Below are positions 9,462 through 29,120 of a DNA stretch of 31,801 nucleotides, piece after piece. Position numbers and translations under genes: made by a program. The DNA is from a virus: the IMG/VR virus record IMGVR_UViG_3300017963_000580, positions 1 through 31,801 of that record, one strand, 5' to 3'. How positions within the stretch are numbered: the stretch's first letter is position 1; every line of letters starts with the position of its first letter. The notes under the pieces are model-generated. The model made no database searches, had not been told where the DNA came from, and saw nothing but the letters and a program-made list of their open reading frames with translations.

Positions 9462-11468
9462 ATGGGTCAAACACTAACGAAACGGGATCTAATTAATCTC
9501 TCTGCAAGCGGCAAGGCTGCAGAGGAATTGCATGCTTTTTTGGTCGGTCTTCGAGAGGATGCGATCAAAGGAGTGGCAGGAGGTGACGCTACTCTTTTTC
9601 ACAAAAAAGTAGGACAAGGAGAGAGCATTGCCAATGCTTCCGACTTAGCCACAGGGATCTCTCTTGCGAATGCACTGAAGGGCAAGCTGAATACACATCT
9701 TGCCTCTACGGGAACCAACGGCGATCACATGGCGGCGTCGGCTGCTAGTGTGGCCTCTGCTGATGCTACCACAAGGGAAACCCTTATCACTCTGGCCAAT
9801 GAGCTAAAGGCCGATTACACGACTCACTTGACCGAGGGTGGTGTCCATCTTAGCAACGACAGCACGAATACCATCGCTGCAGGAAACGCGAACGCCGAAG
9901 CCGAGCTGTATGTTTTGGCGAACGAACTCAAAACAGATTTCAACGCACACAGGACGCAGGCAACAGTCCACAAAACAAACGACACGACAAACATAGTCAC
10001 CGCCGCCAATGCCACCAGTTTAGCGACGGCGTTGACTTTGCTGAACGACATCAAAACACAGTATGAGGCTCATAGAGTCACCGCGGACATTCATGATGTG
10101 GCCGATGCCGTCAACGTAGTTGCTTCGGCTGATGCTACGACTCGAGAGACTCTTATTACTCTTCTCAATGATGAGAAAGCACAATATAACGCACACAGAA
10201 CACAGGCGACAGTTCATGCTGTTGATGACACCACAAACATCGTCACGTCGACCGATGCGAATGGGGAGACTGAGCTTTTCGCCTTAGCCAATGAGCTAAA
10301 GGTGGATTATAACGCGCACCGAATAGAGGGTGGCGTTCACCGAGCGAATGACACTGTAAACGTGGTAACTGCGGCAAACGCGTCAGATTTGGCTACAACC
10401 TACACTCTGTTGAACGACATCAAAACACAGTACGAGGCACATCGAGCGGAAGAGGTCGTTCATGATACAGCGGACACGGCCAATGATGTAACATCCGCAG
10501 ACGCAACCGATCTCGCTTCACTTCAAACGCTAGTCAATGAAATCAAGGCTGATTTCAACGCGCACCGTGTAGAGGCGGGTGTCCACGAAGGAAATGACAC
10601 CACGAATGTTATCGCTTCCGCGAACGCGACAGATCTTCCCTCCGCGCAAACCCTAGTCAATGAGATCAAGGCTGACTATAACGCACACAGAAGTCAGGCC
10701 AACGTTCACAACTTGGACGACGCGGGCAATGCTGTTACATCTCCCGACGCCACCGATCTAGCCTCAGCGGAAACCTTAGCCAATGAAATCAAGGCGGACT
10801 ATAACCTTCACATTGCCGTTACGGGTACACATCTTGAGGCTGACGCCACAAACGCCATTGCTGCAGCCAATGCCAGCGATATCGACACCGCGATCACTCT
10901 GATAACGGAGCTAAAAGCTGACTTCAATCTTCACCGGGTCGAGGCTGGTGTTCATGTCAGCAACGACGCTGCAAATCCCACGACAGCGCCAGATATAACG
11001 ACAACGGCAGGACTTTTCGCCATACTCAACGAGATAAAAACTGATTATGTCGCTCACTTGATCGAGACAGGAGTTCATACAACAAACGACACCTCTAACG
11101 GGATAGCAGCGCCCGACGCAACGGATCTTGCTAGTGCCTATGTTCTCGCGAACGAGATAAAGACCGATTATAATCTTCACCGGGCCACCACGGGAATGCA
11201 CGAAAACCCCGACACTACGAACGCAGTAGCTGCCGCCGCCGCGACCGACATCGACACCGCCATAGCGCTCGCGAACGAAATCAAGGCGGACTATAACGCC
11301 CACAGAACCCAGGCGACAATTCACGCAGTGAATGACGCAACGAACGTCACCGCCGCCGCCGACGTTACAACGAGCGCCCAACTATGGGTCTTGTTGAACG
11401 AAATTAAAACCGACTATAACGCTCACGTAGCGGCGGCAATAAGCACTCCCGCAATTGAAGAGGTATAA
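9462..11468 (+). CDS. Repetitive protein, fourteen 41-residue repeats with paired histidines; probable virion fibre
   Basis: 668 residues. A roughly 74-residue head (helical, TKRDLINLSASGKAAEELHAFLVGLRED) precedes 14 tandem 41-residue units (residues 75-648) and a 20-residue end. The unit consensus is K-A-D-Y-N-A-H-R-x5-V-H-x3-D-T-T-N-x-V-x-x-A-x-A-T-D-L-A-x-A-x-T-L-x-N-E-I. Nearly every unit keeps two His seven residues apart and the NE(I/L)K(A/T)(D/Q)(Y/F) helix. There is no signal peptide, Cys or membrane helix, and the protein is Ala/Thr/Asn/Asp rich. Regular repeats and position among tail genes suggest an elongated trimeric or otherwise oligomeric structural protein, or a head/tail decoration. 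The histidines could bind metal or stabilise a coil. GGGAGGG lies upstream of ATG 9462. No named family is recognised. Confidence 0.75.
   Translation: MGQTLTKRDLINLSASGKAAEELHAFLVGLREDAIKGVAGGDATLFHKKVGQGESIANASDLATGISLANALKGKLNTHLASTGTNGDHMAASAASVASADATTRETLITLANELKADYTTHLTEGGVHLSNDSTNTIAAGNANAEAELYVLANELKTDFNAHRTQATVHKTNDTTNIVTAANATSLATALTLLNDIKTQYEAHRVTADIHDVADAVNVVASADATTRETLITLLNDEKAQYNAHRTQATVHAVDDTTNIVTSTDANGETELFALANELKVDYNAHRIEGGVHRANDTVNVVTAANASDLATTYTLLNDIKTQYEAHRAEEVVHDTADTANDVTSADATDLASLQTLVNEIKADFNAHRVEAGVHEGNDTTNVIASANATDLPSAQTLVNEIKADYNAHRSQANVHNLDDAGNAVTSPDATDLASAETLANEIKADYNLHIAVTGTHLEADATNAIAAANASDIDTAITLITELKADFNLHRVEAGVHVSNDAANPTTAPDITTTAGLFAILNEIKTDYVAHLIETGVHTTNDTSNGIAAPDATDLASAYVLANEIKTDYNLHRATTGMHENPDTTNAVAAAAATDIDTAIALANEIKADYNAHRTQATIHAVNDATNVTAAADVTTSAQLWVLLNEIKTDYNAHVAAAISTPAIEEV
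9684..11405 (+). repeat. 14 tandem 123-bp coding repeats
   Basis: The units are exactly 41 codons each without indels and have diverged in DNA sequence. Protein comparison shows a higher-order period of three units (369 bp): unit 1 resembles unit 4 (both run into SADATTRETLITL), unit 2 resembles unit 5 (LANEL ends), and units 3-4 resemble units 6-7 (both contain LLNDIKTQYEAHR). This indicates growth by duplication of a three-unit block. Later units (8-14) look more like single-unit copies. Confidence 0.85.
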
Positions 11469-14579: not shown

Positions 14580-15311
14580 ATGGGAGATTGCATTAAAGGC
14601 AAGAAGTATCCGTTAGGACATCCTTGTTATACTCCTTACTATAAAGGAAGACCTATCCATCCTTTTGAACTAGACGGAATACGACGGGCAATAATTGCCA
14701 ATATCCACATACAGCAATTGGAGTATGGCGATGATTATCCTTTTGACCCCCGTGAATTTTGCGGCGTACTTCAACCCGAGAGGGAAGACTATACCCCGGA
14801 GTATATTTCTGGAGAAGGGCGCGTTGTTTTGCGTCATTTAGCCGAGATGAGGGATATGGCAATACTGGACTATGAAATTACCGAGGAAGGAAGGTACATA
14901 TTTGACTTTTCGGACCTAGCTGAGCAATTCGATTTGAATAAAATCGAGGGATATTGCTGGTATGTTCCCATATTCAATGAGGATGGAGAGTTGAAGGATA
15001 TGGACTATGTTTATCTTGAACTAGAGGAGAGGGAGAAGGCAACAGTACGCGATAAGTTCGAGAGAATCATCGAAGGCGTTCGTGTATTACGAGGCTTTCG
15101 TTGGATAGCTACTATTTTGGATATCTGGGGCTCTGTCTTGTCTTTTTGGGCAAGTCCGACAGGGGTTATACGAGAGCATTCTCGATTGACGTTGTCTCAT
15201 CTGTCGGCAGTGTCTAGGGCTAGTTACTTTCTTTGTGCTCTATTTATGGCGGTGCATGTCTCAGCGGAAACTCAAAAGTTTAATCGACAAGGAGAGAAAG
15301 ATGTCGATTAA
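14580..15311 (+). CDS. First gene of the replication module, unknown function
   Basis: 243 residues from ATG 14580, which has GGGAGAG directly upstream; a TTG 12 codons earlier is less likely. The N-terminal part, LGHPCYTPYYKGRPIHPFELDGIRRAI, and the middle section LRHLAEMRDMAILDYEITEEGRYIFDFSD resemble a helix plus beta-wing, so a DNA-binding domain is possible. The C-terminal third is more hydrophobic (FRWIATILDIWGSVLSFWASP, ASYFLCALFMAVHVSAE) and might touch the membrane. It overlaps the initiator gene by 11 bases and is therefore probably co-translated with it. I do not recognise a family. Confidence 0.6.
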   Translation: MGDCIKGKKYPLGHPCYTPYYKGRPIHPFELDGIRRAIIANIHIQQLEYGDDYPFDPREFCGVLQPEREDYTPEYISGEGRVVLRHLAEMRDMAILDYEITEEGRYIFDFSDLAEQFDLNKIEGYCWYVPIFNEDGELKDMDYVYLELEEREKATVRDKFERIIEGVRVLRGFRWIATILDIWGSVLSFWASPTGVIREHSRLTLSHLSAVSRASYFLCALFMAVHVSAETQKFNRQGEKDVD

Positions 15312-16932
15312 ATCCGCGATAAAAAGGTGTCAACTATTGGACAACCGAGACAGAGAAATTCTCTATCTCATTTATGAGCATCAGGAGGCAGGTGCGTTTA
15401 TTCCCCATGCCAGAGTAGCGGAGTTGATCGGTGTATCGAGGGATACTGTATCCTATCGATTGCGGAAACTCAGACAGGCTAATCTTATTTCGTGCCAGCG
15501 ATCCGGACGGAAAGAATGGGTATATCAATTTGAGGGGATTGTTGATCGGGGCCTTCAAGCCGGCACTGGAAGTCAACAACAAAATGACCCTGAAACTCCT
15601 GACCCTGAAACTCCTGACCCTGAAACTCCTGACCCTGAAAAACCCCAAATGGTTATCGACCGAAAAACTGAGAAATTTCAACGGGTTTCTGACACTGAAA
15701 CGCCTATCTATGATAGTTATGATTATATATTAAAATCTTATTTAATATCTGAGGAAACATATAAGAATATATTAGCTTTAACACTAAAAACAATATTAGA
15801 ACTAAAAGAGAGATGTTTCGACAACGTCGAAACCAACATCCAAAGTCCAACAAATAAGAACGATCAAATAAGATCCACGATTGATCAAACATCGTCGTCT
15901 GACGTTAATATAAAAAAGACGCGCGACGTGGAGAGTCTTGATTATTTCTCAGAATACTGTCAGCGAAGTGGGGGTCTGGATCTCATTTTCGACTTATTGA
16001 GTGAGACCTTTGGAGTGTTAGGAGAGGAGGGAATCATGAGAGTTATCGGCCCGAAGGGATTGCAGGAACTTCTTCGGTTGAATCGAGAGAGTGAATCGAC
16101 AAGTGGAGAGTCACAGGAGAGAGTGGTTGTTCCGAGTGAAAAGCCGCAGGTAAGCGGTTCTCCTGAGCAACTACCGTTAATGTTGGAAGAAGTTCGTTCT
16201 GAGCCGTCAATCGGACGGCGACATCTTAGGCCGAAAGCGGAGAAGAAAGCGGAGAAGAAACCCAAGAAAAAAGCAAGGAGTAAATCGAAGACTACGCCAC
16301 CAGAGGCAGCGGATGGATACAAAACAAAGCCTATCTCAGACTATAACGCCAAGGATTGGGTACGTTATCTTCAGGATGAAGCTTCTCAGCGGGGGTATGC
16401 GCCGAAGTCATTCAAAGAATGGGGAAAAGCAGGGACTCAAATGTTGTCATTGATGGCCGATGATACGCCTGAAAACTTAAAGGGGTATCTCGATTATTGC
16501 GTAAAGTATTGGCCACAGCTACAGGCGAAATATGGCGTAACAGGATCGATAACCGTTGGATGTCTATTGGGTTTTTATAATTCATTCGCCTTGGAGTATG
16601 AGAAGGGAGCTGCGCCGAAAATAGCGAAAGAAAAGAAGCCTGCGCATTTACAAGGGGAGTGGACAGGGGACCAACCAGAGAAACTGAGAAAGCAAATTAT
16701 AGATACGAGTCAGGAATCTCTGTGGGTGGTGGCGGCGACAAAAAAGGGGATGAAAGCTCGATTAGAGCTTCGTGCACCGGGGGGTGTGGACGTGATTTCA
16801 TACGAGGAATTCGATTTTTCGGGGGACGCAGTAATCGCGGGATTGCGAAAGATAAAAGAACTAGGTTGGCATAGGGATCGGTTCGTGACTGATGGAAAGT
16901 TACGGGCGGCAGAGTTGACGAAAGACCAGTGA
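15301..16932 (+). CDS. Winged-helix replication initiator candidate (lambda O-like organisation)
   Basis: 543 residues from ATG 15301, chosen over an upstream start because AAGGAGAG lies just before it. Residues about 1-78 form a winged helix-turn-helix (LLDNRDREILYLIYEHQ, ARVAELIGVSRDTVSYRLRKLRQANLI). Residues 96-115 are a proline-rich run of DPETP repeats encoded by 15-bp iterons, and then comes an Asn/Ile/Lys-rich stretch encoded by AT-rich DNA. After about residue 215 the protein is acidic, then strongly basic (AEKKAEKKPKKKARSKSK, about 310-340), and ends in a helical and mixed domain containing KDWVRYLQDEASQRGYAPKS. Lambda-type initiators carry an N-terminal DNA-binding domain, origin repeats inside their own gene and a loader gene downstream. 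All three are seen here. Homology to O itself is not claimed. Confidence 0.65.
   Translation: MSIKSAIKRCQLLDNRDREILYLIYEHQEAGAFIPHARVAELIGVSRDTVSYRLRKLRQANLISCQRSGRKEWVYQFEGIVDRGLQAGTGSQQQNDPETPDPETPDPETPDPEKPQMVIDRKTEKFQRVSDTETPIYDSYDYILKSYLISEETYKNILALTLKTILELKERCFDNVETNIQSPTNKNDQIRSTIDQTSSSDVNIKKTRDVESLDYFSEYCQRSGGLDLIFDLLSETFGVLGEEGIMRVIGPKGLQELLRLNRESESTSGESQERVVVPSEKPQVSGSPEQLPLMLEEVRSEPSIGRRHLRPKAEKKAEKKPKKKARSKSKTTPPEAADGYKTKPISDYNAKDWVRYLQDEASQRGYAPKSFKEWGKAGTQMLSLMADDTPENLKGYLDYCVKYWPQLQAKYGVTGSITVGCLLGFYNSFALEYEKGAAPKIAKEKKPAHLQGEWTGDQPEKLRKQIIDTSQESLWVVAATKKGMKARLELRAPGGVDVISYEEFDFSGDAVIAGLRKIKELGWHRDRFVTDGKLRAAELTKDQ
15585..15704 (+). repeat. 15-bp iterons inside the initiator gene
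   Basis: TGACCCTGAAACTCC occurs perfectly at 15585-15599, 15600-15614 and 15615-15629. A fourth copy, TGACCCTGAAAAACC (15630-15644), has two changes. A fifth, TGACACTGAAACGCC (15690-15704), has two changes and lies 45 bp further on, in phase with the 15-bp spacing. In protein they read as DPETP units. Confidence 0.9.
15585..15810. other. Putative replication origin (iterons plus AT-rich unwinding region)
   Basis: Direct 15-bp repeats (15585-15644 and 15690-15704) are followed by a very AT-rich segment, about 15706-15810, with runs such as GATTATATATTAAAATC and AATATATTAG. The whole lies inside a winged-helix gene that precedes a DnaC-like loader. This is the arrangement of the lambdoid origin: initiator-binding iterons followed by a DNA unwinding element. 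Function is inferred from layout; binding has not been shown. Confidence 0.6.
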
Positions 16933-26270: not shown

Positions 26271-29120
26271 ATGGAAGTATTGGCGACGAGGGAGACCCTG
26301 TCATATCTCAAGGATAAGTGCGCAAACGCGGAGGAGATAGGGCTCGACTATGAGACAACGTCATACCATCCGCATCCAAAGGCGCCGTTACATCACGATA
26401 AACTCGAGGTTGTTGGCGTCGGGCTGGGGTTTGCAGACGGTGAAAAGACGTATTTGCCAATTGGTCACGCTGTGGGTGACAACTTGTCGTATGGTGAGGT
26501 GGTTGATTTATTGCGAAGTATTCTCACCGATTCATCGAAGTACATCTATGCGTATAACGCCAAATTTGAGGCAACAGTTACGAATTCGTTGGGAATAGAC
26601 CACCGGTGTCAGTGGAGGGACGGGATGGTGGCGGCGTGGTTGATGGCTAGGAACATAATGGGAGGCGGTGGATATAAACTCAAGGCTCAGGTGAAAAAGT
26701 TTCTCGGGTATAGAATGGAGACGTGGGAGGAAGTTATCGGAGACGTCAGAGGACACCAAATAGCTCCGACGAGGATGGCTCCTTATTGCGCTGACGACGC
26801 ATTGTGGGGGATGAAAATATGTCAACACCACATGGAAGGGCTGAAAGAATTTGGAATGATGAAGGTGTTTGATGTTCTCGAGAATCCCATTGCGGCGGAA
26901 GTATTGCCACACATGGAAGAATGCGGGATGGAGATTGACGCGAAGTTTCTTTCTCAGCTGTACGATGAACATTTAGCCTCAATGAACGAACTGAATAAGG
27001 AGTTCACAAAACTCACTGGTGCCGATATAGGGTCGAACTTAGCTATCAGTAAACGATTGATAGATGAATTGGGGTGGTGGTTACCGCCAGAAGGAGCTGA
27101 GAGGGGAAAAAGCGGTTGTTACTCGATAGCAAAGGCGGCGAGGGAAAAGATATTTGAGGCACTGGAAGATGACACGCCAGGCATGCAGGCTATGGAGTTA
27201 AAGATAAAGTATCAGACGATCCAAAAAATAGTATCGACGTACACCCGGTCACTTGTCGAGAAGGCGAGGCAATACAGGGACGGACGACTGAGAACATCAT
27301 GGAACCAAACGCGGACGGACACCGGAAGGCTATCCTCGTCCGATCCGGCGTTGCAGCAATTACCAATTAGGACTCCGGAAGGGAAAAAAGTACGGCAAGG
27401 TGTTATAGCTCCGGAAGGATGGATATTGTATGATAGGGACTATTCCGGAGCGGATCTTCGCATGATGGCTCATCTATGCCGGGACGAAAGAATGATTAAT
27501 CTCTTTCATTCTGAGGACGATAATCTTCACCGAATGACCTCAAACGAAGTAGGCTGTAATTACGACACCGGAAAAGTGATGAACTTAGGGCTAATTTACG
27601 AGATGAGCTCATGGAAACTTTCCCGGACACTAAAGATCCCGGAAAAGGATGCAGAGGAGATATTCGTAAAATGGCATAGGACATATCCCGGTGTAAGAGC
27701 GTATCATAGGGCTATTCACGACTACGCACGAAAGCACGGATATGTAAAGACGATTACAGGCAGGTTGCGATGGATTGACGGCATAAACTCAAGAGACAAG
27801 AAAAAAAGGAAACAGGCGGAGCGATACGCCTCAAATTGCGTCGATTATGAAACCGAGGCTTTGACGCAGAGAGGATGGGTAAAAGGCCCGGAGTTACGAC
27901 AGAATGATATACTTTTAACGAAGAACATTGACACGGGAAATCTGGAATGGCAGGGCCTTACCGGACTGAGGTTGTACCCCGATTATAACGGAGAATTAGT
28001 GCATTTTACGACAAGAAACTTCACATCGGTATCCACGCCTAATCATAGATGGATGGTATATAACAAGGGCACAAATCGGAACGAGTGTAGGACATCAGAG
28101 GAGATATCGGTATACGGTGATCATCGTATTCACCGCACAGGTAGCTATCTAAACGCAACAGGCGACGGCTCATGGACGGATGACGAGGTACGGTTAATCG
28201 GGTGGTTTCTTACGGATGGAACGATTGTTCACTCAAAAAAAGGATCAGGGAGATCACCTACTTCGATTAGGGTGATGCAGAGTCTTAGGGCGAATAAGGA
28301 GAACTGTCAGGATATAGCAAATTTATTGGATCGAATCTCTGGTCTTACCCATGGGTTTTATGTTCGAGCGGAACATGAGATGGGGGTATGGACGGCATCG
28401 GGACCAGTGGTGCGACGAATTCTTTCGGTGTTTCCGGACAGGGTACTTACCATGGACTTTTTGTTGTCGTTGTCAGGGGGGCAGTGTCAAGTGTTGCAAG
28501 GAACTATGGTTAGAGGTGATGGATGGGAGGGGGCCAAGATAGGGCTGTGTTGTAGTTCAAAACGTAAAGCGGATATGTTTCAAGTGTTAGGGTGCATGAC
28601 TGGAAAGGCGGTGTCGATAAAGTACAGGGATTTATCGATGTATAGCCCGATATCCGAAAAAATGCCAAACATCCCGAAGCCTAACGGGGCTTGGTATGCC
28701 ACGATACTCAAGAGAGATAAGGTTCAAATTCAATCAAATCATAGGTCAATAGTCATCGAGTCCCGGGGGGTTTGGTGTCCGCAGGTTCCAAACACGTATT
28801 TCGTGGCGAGGAGAAAAGATAGTGTATTCATAACCGGAAACACACCGGACCAAGGGAGTGTGGCAGACATCGCAAAGATTGCGATGAGAAATCTCATTAG
28901 GGATTGGAAGTCGAGAGGGGTGTTGTTCAATTATCACACAGGAGAAGGTAAGGCGAAACTTATCGGACAGGTTCACGACGAGCTATTAGTGGAGTTGAGA
29001 GAGGACTTTGCGGAGGAGGGTGCGGATGACACACGGAGACATATGGAGGAGGCAGTGAAGTTGAGGGTGCCTTTGAAGACAGACGGCGATTTTGGAAAGG
29101 ATTGGCTTGAGGCGCACTAG
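26271..29120 (+). CDS. Family A DNA polymerase (3'-5' exonuclease + polymerase) interrupted by an intein
   Basis: 949 residues; without the 335-residue intein the polymerase is 614, normal for a phage family A enzyme lacking the 5' nuclease. The exonuclease domain starts with D26-x-E28 (GLDYETT). Motif A is DYSGADLR with D390; the steric-gate Glu of most family A enzymes is Asp395 here. The O-helix reads KVMNLGLIYE: K435 matches E. coli K758, Leu439 sits at the Phe762 position, Tyr443 matches Tyr766, and Glu444 replaces Gly767. Motif C is VHDE with H902-D903-E904. The intein divides N522 (E. coli N845) from T858-P-D-Q861 (Q849). GGGGGCG precedes ATG 26271 after the SSB terminator. This is the main replicative polymerase of the phage, if it splices. 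Confidence 0.9.
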   Translation: MEVLATRETLSYLKDKCANAEEIGLDYETTSYHPHPKAPLHHDKLEVVGVGLGFADGEKTYLPIGHAVGDNLSYGEVVDLLRSILTDSSKYIYAYNAKFEATVTNSLGIDHRCQWRDGMVAAWLMARNIMGGGGYKLKAQVKKFLGYRMETWEEVIGDVRGHQIAPTRMAPYCADDALWGMKICQHHMEGLKEFGMMKVFDVLENPIAAEVLPHMEECGMEIDAKFLSQLYDEHLASMNELNKEFTKLTGADIGSNLAISKRLIDELGWWLPPEGAERGKSGCYSIAKAAREKIFEALEDDTPGMQAMELKIKYQTIQKIVSTYTRSLVEKARQYRDGRLRTSWNQTRTDTGRLSSSDPALQQLPIRTPEGKKVRQGVIAPEGWILYDRDYSGADLRMMAHLCRDERMINLFHSEDDNLHRMTSNEVGCNYDTGKVMNLGLIYEMSSWKLSRTLKIPEKDAEEIFVKWHRTYPGVRAYHRAIHDYARKHGYVKTITGRLRWIDGINSRDKKKRKQAERYASNCVDYETEALTQRGWVKGPELRQNDILLTKNIDTGNLEWQGLTGLRLYPDYNGELVHFTTRNFTSVSTPNHRWMVYNKGTNRNECRTSEEISVYGDHRIHRTGSYLNATGDGSWTDDEVRLIGWFLTDGTIVHSKKGSGRSPTSIRVMQSLRANKENCQDIANLLDRISGLTHGFYVRAEHEMGVWTASGPVVRRILSVFPDRVLTMDFLLSLSGGQCQVLQGTMVRGDGWEGAKIGLCCSSKRKADMFQVLGCMTGKAVSIKYRDLSMYSPISEKMPNIPKPNGAWYATILKRDKVQIQSNHRSIVIESRGVWCPQVPNTYFVARRKDSVFITGNTPDQGSVADIAKIAMRNLIRDWKSRGVLFNYHTGEGKAKLIGQVHDELLVELREDFAEEGADDTRRHMEEAVKLRVPLKTDGDFGKDWLEAH
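27837..28841 (+). mobile_element. Intein with LAGLIDADG homing endonuclease, in the polymerase active site
   Basis: 335 residues (523-857 of the polymerase). Block A starts with Cys: CVDYETEALTQRGW. Block B is SVSTPNHRWMV with the TxxH. The endonuclease blocks are LIGWFLTDG (642-650, D649) and LQGTMVRGDG (742-751, D750), each ending in an acidic-Gly pair. Block F/G is YFVARRKDSVFITGN, followed by Thr858 as the +1 residue. The penultimate residue is Gly, where most inteins have His. The Cys, Asn and Thr needed for splicing are present, so it is probably active, but the Gly makes this uncertain. The insertion point, directly after the Asn of RYASN and before TPDQG, is a highly conserved site, a typical target for intein homing. 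Confidence 0.9.

Follow-up and report, generated by a model that had tools for sequence, protein, structure and literature searches.

Cyclization of the C-terminal Asn of an intein is usually aided by the penultimate His (PMC5222942), and some His-less inteins improve once this residue is restored (PMC5050341). The Bethlehem RDF (gp51) intein, treated by its authors as class 1, carries penultimate Gly316 and shows complete native splicing, half-completion in the G316H mutant taking more than 5 h (PMC5050341). Similarly, the AceL NrdHF split intein (PDB:6zgq), which ends with Thr-Gly-Asn and has neither a block F His nor a penultimate His, has a splicing half-time of 3.8 min; its G145H mutant is inactive, with a predicted clash between the introduced His and Arg69 (position B:11), the R69A mutant is slower, and Arg69 lies 2.5 Å from the C-scissile carbonyl oxygen (PMC7891396). 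AceL NrdHF is proven to belong to class 3 (PMC7891396), where splicing is started by Cys F:4 and not by residue 1, and where the WCT motif is defined by positions B:12, F:4, and G:5 (PMC3196547, PMC7891396); the class 3 definition in PMC7891396 also demands that there be no Cys1.

Here, we analyze a stretch of viral DNA of 31,801 nucleotides (IMG/VR record IMGVR_UViG_3300017963_000580, hereafter the window), where the ORF at positions 26271–29120 of the plus strand, with 949 codons and open throughout, encodes a family A DNA polymerase interrupted by an intein (Table 1). The N-extein matches the Pfam domains DNA_pol_A (E = 5.8e-84) and DNA_pol_A_exo1, the 3'-5' exonuclease (E = 1.6e-12). The original prediction, made from the sequence alone, had described an intein with Cys1, the TxxH block B, two LAGLIDADG blocks, terminal Asn, and Thr+1, and with Gly in place of the penultimate His. 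Each of these elements was located in the sequence, the penultimate residue being Gly334 (codon GGA), as in the relatives, and the intein itself is confirmed by the open frame of 335 aa, empty-site homologues, and the predicted splicing and LAGLIDADG fold. The WCT motif formed by W72, C314, and T333, the adjacent Arg71, and the family-wide nature of the Gly ending had been overlooked.

Table 1. Features of the intein-containing polymerase gene (positions in the window; clusters are those of the family alignment).
Feature	Position	Strand	Basis or conservation
N-extein: 3'-5' exonuclease and the larger part of the family A polymerase domain	26271..27836	+	Pfam, sequence
Intein, 335 aa: splicing domain and LAGLIDADG endonuclease	27837..28841	+	sequence, model, structure matches
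Cys1 (block A), TGC	27837..27839	+	invariant in 61/61 family clusters
Block B TxxH, T67-P-N-H70: Thr67 (B:7), His70 (B:10)	28035..28046	+	sequence, family alignment
Arg71 (B:11), proposed stand-in for the penultimate His	28047..28049	+	Arg/Lys in 59/61 clusters; equivalent to AceL NrdHF Arg69
Trp72 (B:12), W of the class 3 WCT motif	28050..28052	+	W in 44/61 clusters, else V/M/C/F/T/L
LAGLIDADG block C (RLIGWFLTDGTI), acidic Asp127	28188..28229	+	sequence; homing endonuclease folds matched
LAGLIDADG block E (QCQVLQGTMVRGDGW), acidic Asp228	28482..28529	+	D228 invariant in A1
Block F Trp313-Cys314 in VWCPQV; Cys314 = F:4, C of WCT	28773..28778	+	Cys in 61/61 clusters (partly selected in the IMG/VR subset)
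Arg325-Arg326, conserved pair between blocks F and G	28809..28814	+	R325 in 57/61, R326 in 53/61 clusters
Block G end Thr333-Gly334-Asn335, ACC-GGA-AAC: T of WCT, penultimate Gly, cyclizing Asn	28833..28841	+	Gly 60/61, Asn 59/61 (Gln 2), Thr/Ser 59/61
C-extein, starting with Thr+1 and including the HDE motif (28974-28982)	28842..29120	+	sequence
Thr+1, ACA	28842-28844	+	first C-extein codon

Joined across the intein, the flanks read QAERYASN followed by TPDQGSVADIAKIAM, and the joined exteins are collinear with intein-free family A polymerases, such as that of MT839648 (...YAERNAINAPIQGSAADIIKIAM); other intein-free matches are the Rosemountvirus polymerase (...KAINRVLQGSSAD) and MW202657 (...KAFNSLVQGCAMD). 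With empty-site polymerases at loci L010, L011, and L167, the element is an in-frame insertion into a conserved motif that relatives retain without the insert. L010 and L011 had been suspected, from the tblastn range, to carry an intein at the same site, and both are intein-free. The intein follows the Asn equivalent to E. coli N845 in an uninterrupted frame, in agreement with the original prediction; what had been called there the catalytic motif is more exactly the conserved N845/Q849 helix of the Pol I structure, the HDE motif being located downstream. The polymerase very probably needs removal of the intein in order to function. Single-protein scans of viral contigs, with the window intein and with the N-extein, found no relative.

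Repeats occur in two other ORFs of the window. The 668-aa ORF at positions 9462–11468 contains many degenerate repeats of about 38 residues (...ANELKTDFNAHRTQATVHKTNDTTN...) and, close to its C-terminus, weakly matches a head fibre protein in PHROG, and the ORF at positions 15235–16932 has an in-frame PETPDPETPDPETPDPEKP tandem repeat following a DNA-binding-like N-terminus.

The AlphaFold2 model of the intein (43 sequences; mean pLDDT 92.9, pTM 0.91) consists of a splicing domain and a LAGLIDADG endonuclease. The structures that match it best over the full length are 7qsu (Z 25.9) and 1dq3 (Z 23.3), both of them inteins with an endonuclease, and the endonuclease-type folds matched by the model are those of I-DmoI, PI-PfuI, and PI-SceI. 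Among stand-alone splicing domains, the top match is AceL NrdHF (6zgq; Z 19.9, 2.0 Å over 146 residues), which outscores Hedgehog (17.8) and all other listed mini-inteins and is also the solved intein that ranks first in the profile comparison (E = 7.9e-7). The splicing-domain fold, blocks A, B, F, and G, the Asn followed by a +1 residue of the Cys/Ser/Thr set, and two LAGLIDADG blocks with acidic residues together identify the element as a LAGLIDADG intein.

The isolated intein matches no NCBIfam model at E <= 10, and its sole Pfam match is a sub-threshold one to LAGLIDADG_3. The model TIGR01445 missed family inteins in W02, W03, and W04, as well as the family member L007 in W01. It likewise misses the window intein and those of L004, L014, and L015; the host genes are labelled as DNA methyltransferase, phosphoesterase, and HNH endonuclease, with no intein mentioned. 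Inteins of this family are probably under-annotated in phage records.

A tblastn search against phage records with the window intein as the query yielded 313 records, and scans with the family alignment identified 60 loci in IMG/VR and 39 loci in GTDB genomes. The alignment comprises 111 inteins from IMG/VR, GTDB, and phage and plasmid records; 105 of them are intact and form 61 clusters at <70% identity, with the median pairwise identity of 27%. Cys1, Gly13, His70, and Cys314 do not vary among the 61 clusters, the conservation of Cys F:4 being partly selected in the IMG/VR subset, where the scan pattern included WCP; the GTDB scan, which provided 36 intact members, used patterns outside all diagnostic positions and gave the same conservation picture. 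Residue 2, next to the invariant Cys1, varies freely in the 61 clusters. Thr67 is retained in 58 out of 61 clusters, the only replacement of Gly334 is Ser (one cluster), and Asn335 gives way to Gln in two clusters. Relatives from tblastn and from degenerate scans share Cys1, His B:10, Arg or Lys B:11, Cys F:4, and the [T/S]-G-N ending, and the window intein belongs to the family by full-length homology, Cys1, Cys F:4, and its Ile-Thr-Gly-Asn C-terminus. The Gly-Asn ending is a family-wide trait, not an oddity of one phage. Inteins of this family in two viral contigs (L060, L061) end with Thr-Gly-Gln followed by Thr, and hence are Gln-terminal.

Five decayed relatives from Streptomyces, three on plasmids (L079, L080, L081) and two on chromosomes (L111, L119), have no terminal Asn and still end with Thr-Gly. 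Cys1 and Thr B:7 are missing from all five, and Arg or Lys at B:11 from four of them; the disappearance of these residues alongside the terminal Asn indicates that intact members maintain them for splicing. In the plasmid loci L079–L081, the annotated gene begins within or at the intein; the Streptomyces remnants are possibly retained for the endonuclease. A decaying or impaired state of the window intein was discarded as an explanation, since its frame is open, all residues for splicing and the two acidic residues of the endonuclease are in place, and the truly decayed relatives look different.

The penultimate Gly could reflect a sequencing or assembly error, as the window is a single viral contig whose second copy was not found, and the original prediction had allowed for a His codon in corrected reads. 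However, an exchange between GGA and CAC or CAT would involve all three bases of the codon, and the relatives have Gly as well, which makes a read error very unlikely, its probability being practically negligible. A loss of the penultimate His might also impair the intein, the polymerase piling up as a slow or inactive precursor, possibly with a regulatory role. The assistance of Asn cyclization by His and the improvement of some His-less inteins upon its restoration would agree with this (PMC5222942, PMC5050341), but Gly is fixed throughout the family, and the Gly relatives that were tested are fast, whereas introducing His costs them their activity; we consider such impairment decidedly improbable. 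The literature comparison of Gly-to-His variants, suggested in the original prediction, points the same way, as G316H nearly stops splicing of the Bethlehem intein (PMC5050341) and the AceL NrdHF mutant is inactive (PMC7891396).

With R71 and G334, the window intein fits the pattern of His-less inteins with Arg B:11. Arg or Lys occupies B:11 in 59 out of 61 family clusters, in 58 of them together with Gly334, compared to nine out of 34 ordinary His-Asn inteins, nearly all actinobacterial, where this position is mostly Pro (Fisher p ~3e-13, inflated by common descent). Arg B:11 is not absolutely required, since L013 and L067 retain the penultimate Gly although their B:11 residue is Met or Asn. 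Given the strong precedent of AceL NrdHF, Arg71 likely substitutes for the missing His, and Gly334 would be needed to admit Arg71; the window intein is predicted to splice normally despite its penultimate Gly. In our analysis, the Gly-Asn ending turns out to be the rule in this family, and experiments on relatives have already accounted for it. Thus, of the earlier reasoning, the implied alternative to His-assisted cyclization stands, but it is not peculiar to one phage.

The window intein combines the complete class 3 signature (Trp B:12, Cys F:4, Thr G:5) with the class 1 features, Cys1 and the TxxH block B, so that a position-1 nucleophile is present. Plain assignment to class 3 based on the WCT motif was set aside because Cys1 is present and invariant. 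We lean toward Cys1 as the residue that initiates splicing. If the class 3 mechanism operated instead, Cys314 would attack the N-scissile bond directly and give rise to the branched intermediate at block F, with Cys1 being a dispensable relic. The full WCT motif accompanied by Thr+1 and the class 3 nature of the nearest solved splicing domain, AceL NrdHF, are consistent with this mechanism, as is MP-Catera Gp206, placed in class 3 by a published study of inteins bearing both signatures (cited in PMC3196547). On the other hand, Cys1 is invariant beside the freely varying residue 2, TxxH is class 1-like, as class 3 inteins have no conserved B:7 residue (PMC7891396), and Trp B:12 is replaced in 17 out of 61 clusters; overall, we see the class 3 mechanism as possible but unlikely.

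Since both Cys1 and Cys F:4 are found in all clusters, and Cys F:4 sits between both splice junctions in class 3 structures (PMC7891396), both cysteines might be obligatory, with a linear thioester at Cys1 relayed via Cys314 to Thr+1, making the intein a class 1/class 3 hybrid. However, an assisting Cys F:4 also occurs in ordinary class 1 inteins (PMC4031507, PMC3196547), and hence this residue could be conserved without any relay, which we find rather unlikely here. That the family constitutes a separate two-Cys mechanistic class, with the Cys1 thioester, Cys F:4 relay to Ser/Thr+1, and Arg B:11 plus an obligatory Gly cyclizing Asn, seems to us quite doubtful; if true, the adjacent thiols could make splicing redox-sensitive.

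The reading that we prefer, with initiation at Cys1, is that of an active, mobile, phage-borne LAGLIDADG intein from a "Cys1 + Cys F:4 + Thr-Gly-Asn" family, splicing efficiently partly because of Gly334, and we consider this explanation quite probable. Thr67 together with His70, which is held by Thr333, would put the N-scissile bond under strain and activate it, and the acyl group would pass onto Cys1 as a thioester, with Cys314 being a rival nucleophile or a relay, and further to Thr+1. Asn335 would then cyclize, Arg71 polarizing the C-scissile carbonyl instead of His and Gly334 leaving room for it, as the mutational and structural precedent of AceL NrdHF suggests. Ligation of the exteins would restore the uninterrupted helix and an intact polymerase of 614 residues, and the endonuclease, having both acidic residues, would carry the intein into polymerase genes that lack it.

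What remains of interest is that class 1 and class 3 nucleophiles occur together throughout the family: many inteins from phages and actinobacteria possess both, along with a near-invariant penultimate Gly; they straddle the current class definitions, and standard intein models miss them. The origin of class 3 chemistry could be studied with this ready-made collection, and protein engineering can make use of inteins that splice efficiently in the absence of the His.

Comparison with other inteins at this polymerase site, proposed in the original prediction, led to the PolA intein of Phage DP SC_2_H4_2017 from human faeces (MT121960), the sister of the window intein in the intein tree (support 100/88) with 32% identity. 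Both reside in the same polymerase and share Cys1, HRW, IWC, and TGN; the MT121960 intein is inserted three residues upstream (LRQ/STNMPCQS vs. ASN/TPDQG in the window) and is followed by Ser+1. The two inteins are related, and their insertion sites lie close together in a single conserved helix without coinciding. Upstream, the MT121960 polymerase seems to contain another intein-like insert, unrelated to the first (L001, 202-4467; FLIHG/CVSGNTKLIG...FINSN/TTSGRLSS), which includes an HNH-like region and has Ser as the penultimate residue; this gut-phage polymerase may hold two inteins.

The Thermobifida fusca member L107 resembles the window intein in Cys1, TxxH, HRW, VWC, and FTGN, and differs in its host protein; it carries Ser+1. 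Inteins bearing both signatures, one of them from Thermobifida fusca, were reportedly studied by Tori and Perler in 2011, and L107 is presumably their Tfu2914 intein. Class definitions in the literature are at variance on this point, since the one in PMC7891396 leaves no place for Cys1.

The Bethlehem RDF intein, as read on its equivalent L014 (an A1-type phage; 317 aa, LTGN), which was found with the window intein as the query, shares Cys1, the VWC block F, and the LTGN end with the penultimate Gly; it has Val B:12, hence no full WCT motif, resides in another host protein, and is about 24% identical to the window intein. In the tree, L014 falls into the same family as a long-branch relative. 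AceL NrdHF is similar in Thr-Gly-Asn, the lack of both the block F His and the penultimate His, HR at B:10–B:11, and Cys F:4, and differs in Ala1, Met B:12, its naturally split state, and the absence of a LAGLIDADG domain (PMC7891396). Finally, the canonical class 3 DnaB inteins, MchDnaB1 and MsmDnaBi1, have the WCT motif and Ser/Thr+1 in common with the window intein, but have no position-1 nucleophile and end with Thr-His-Asn (PMC7664689, PMC12245125).
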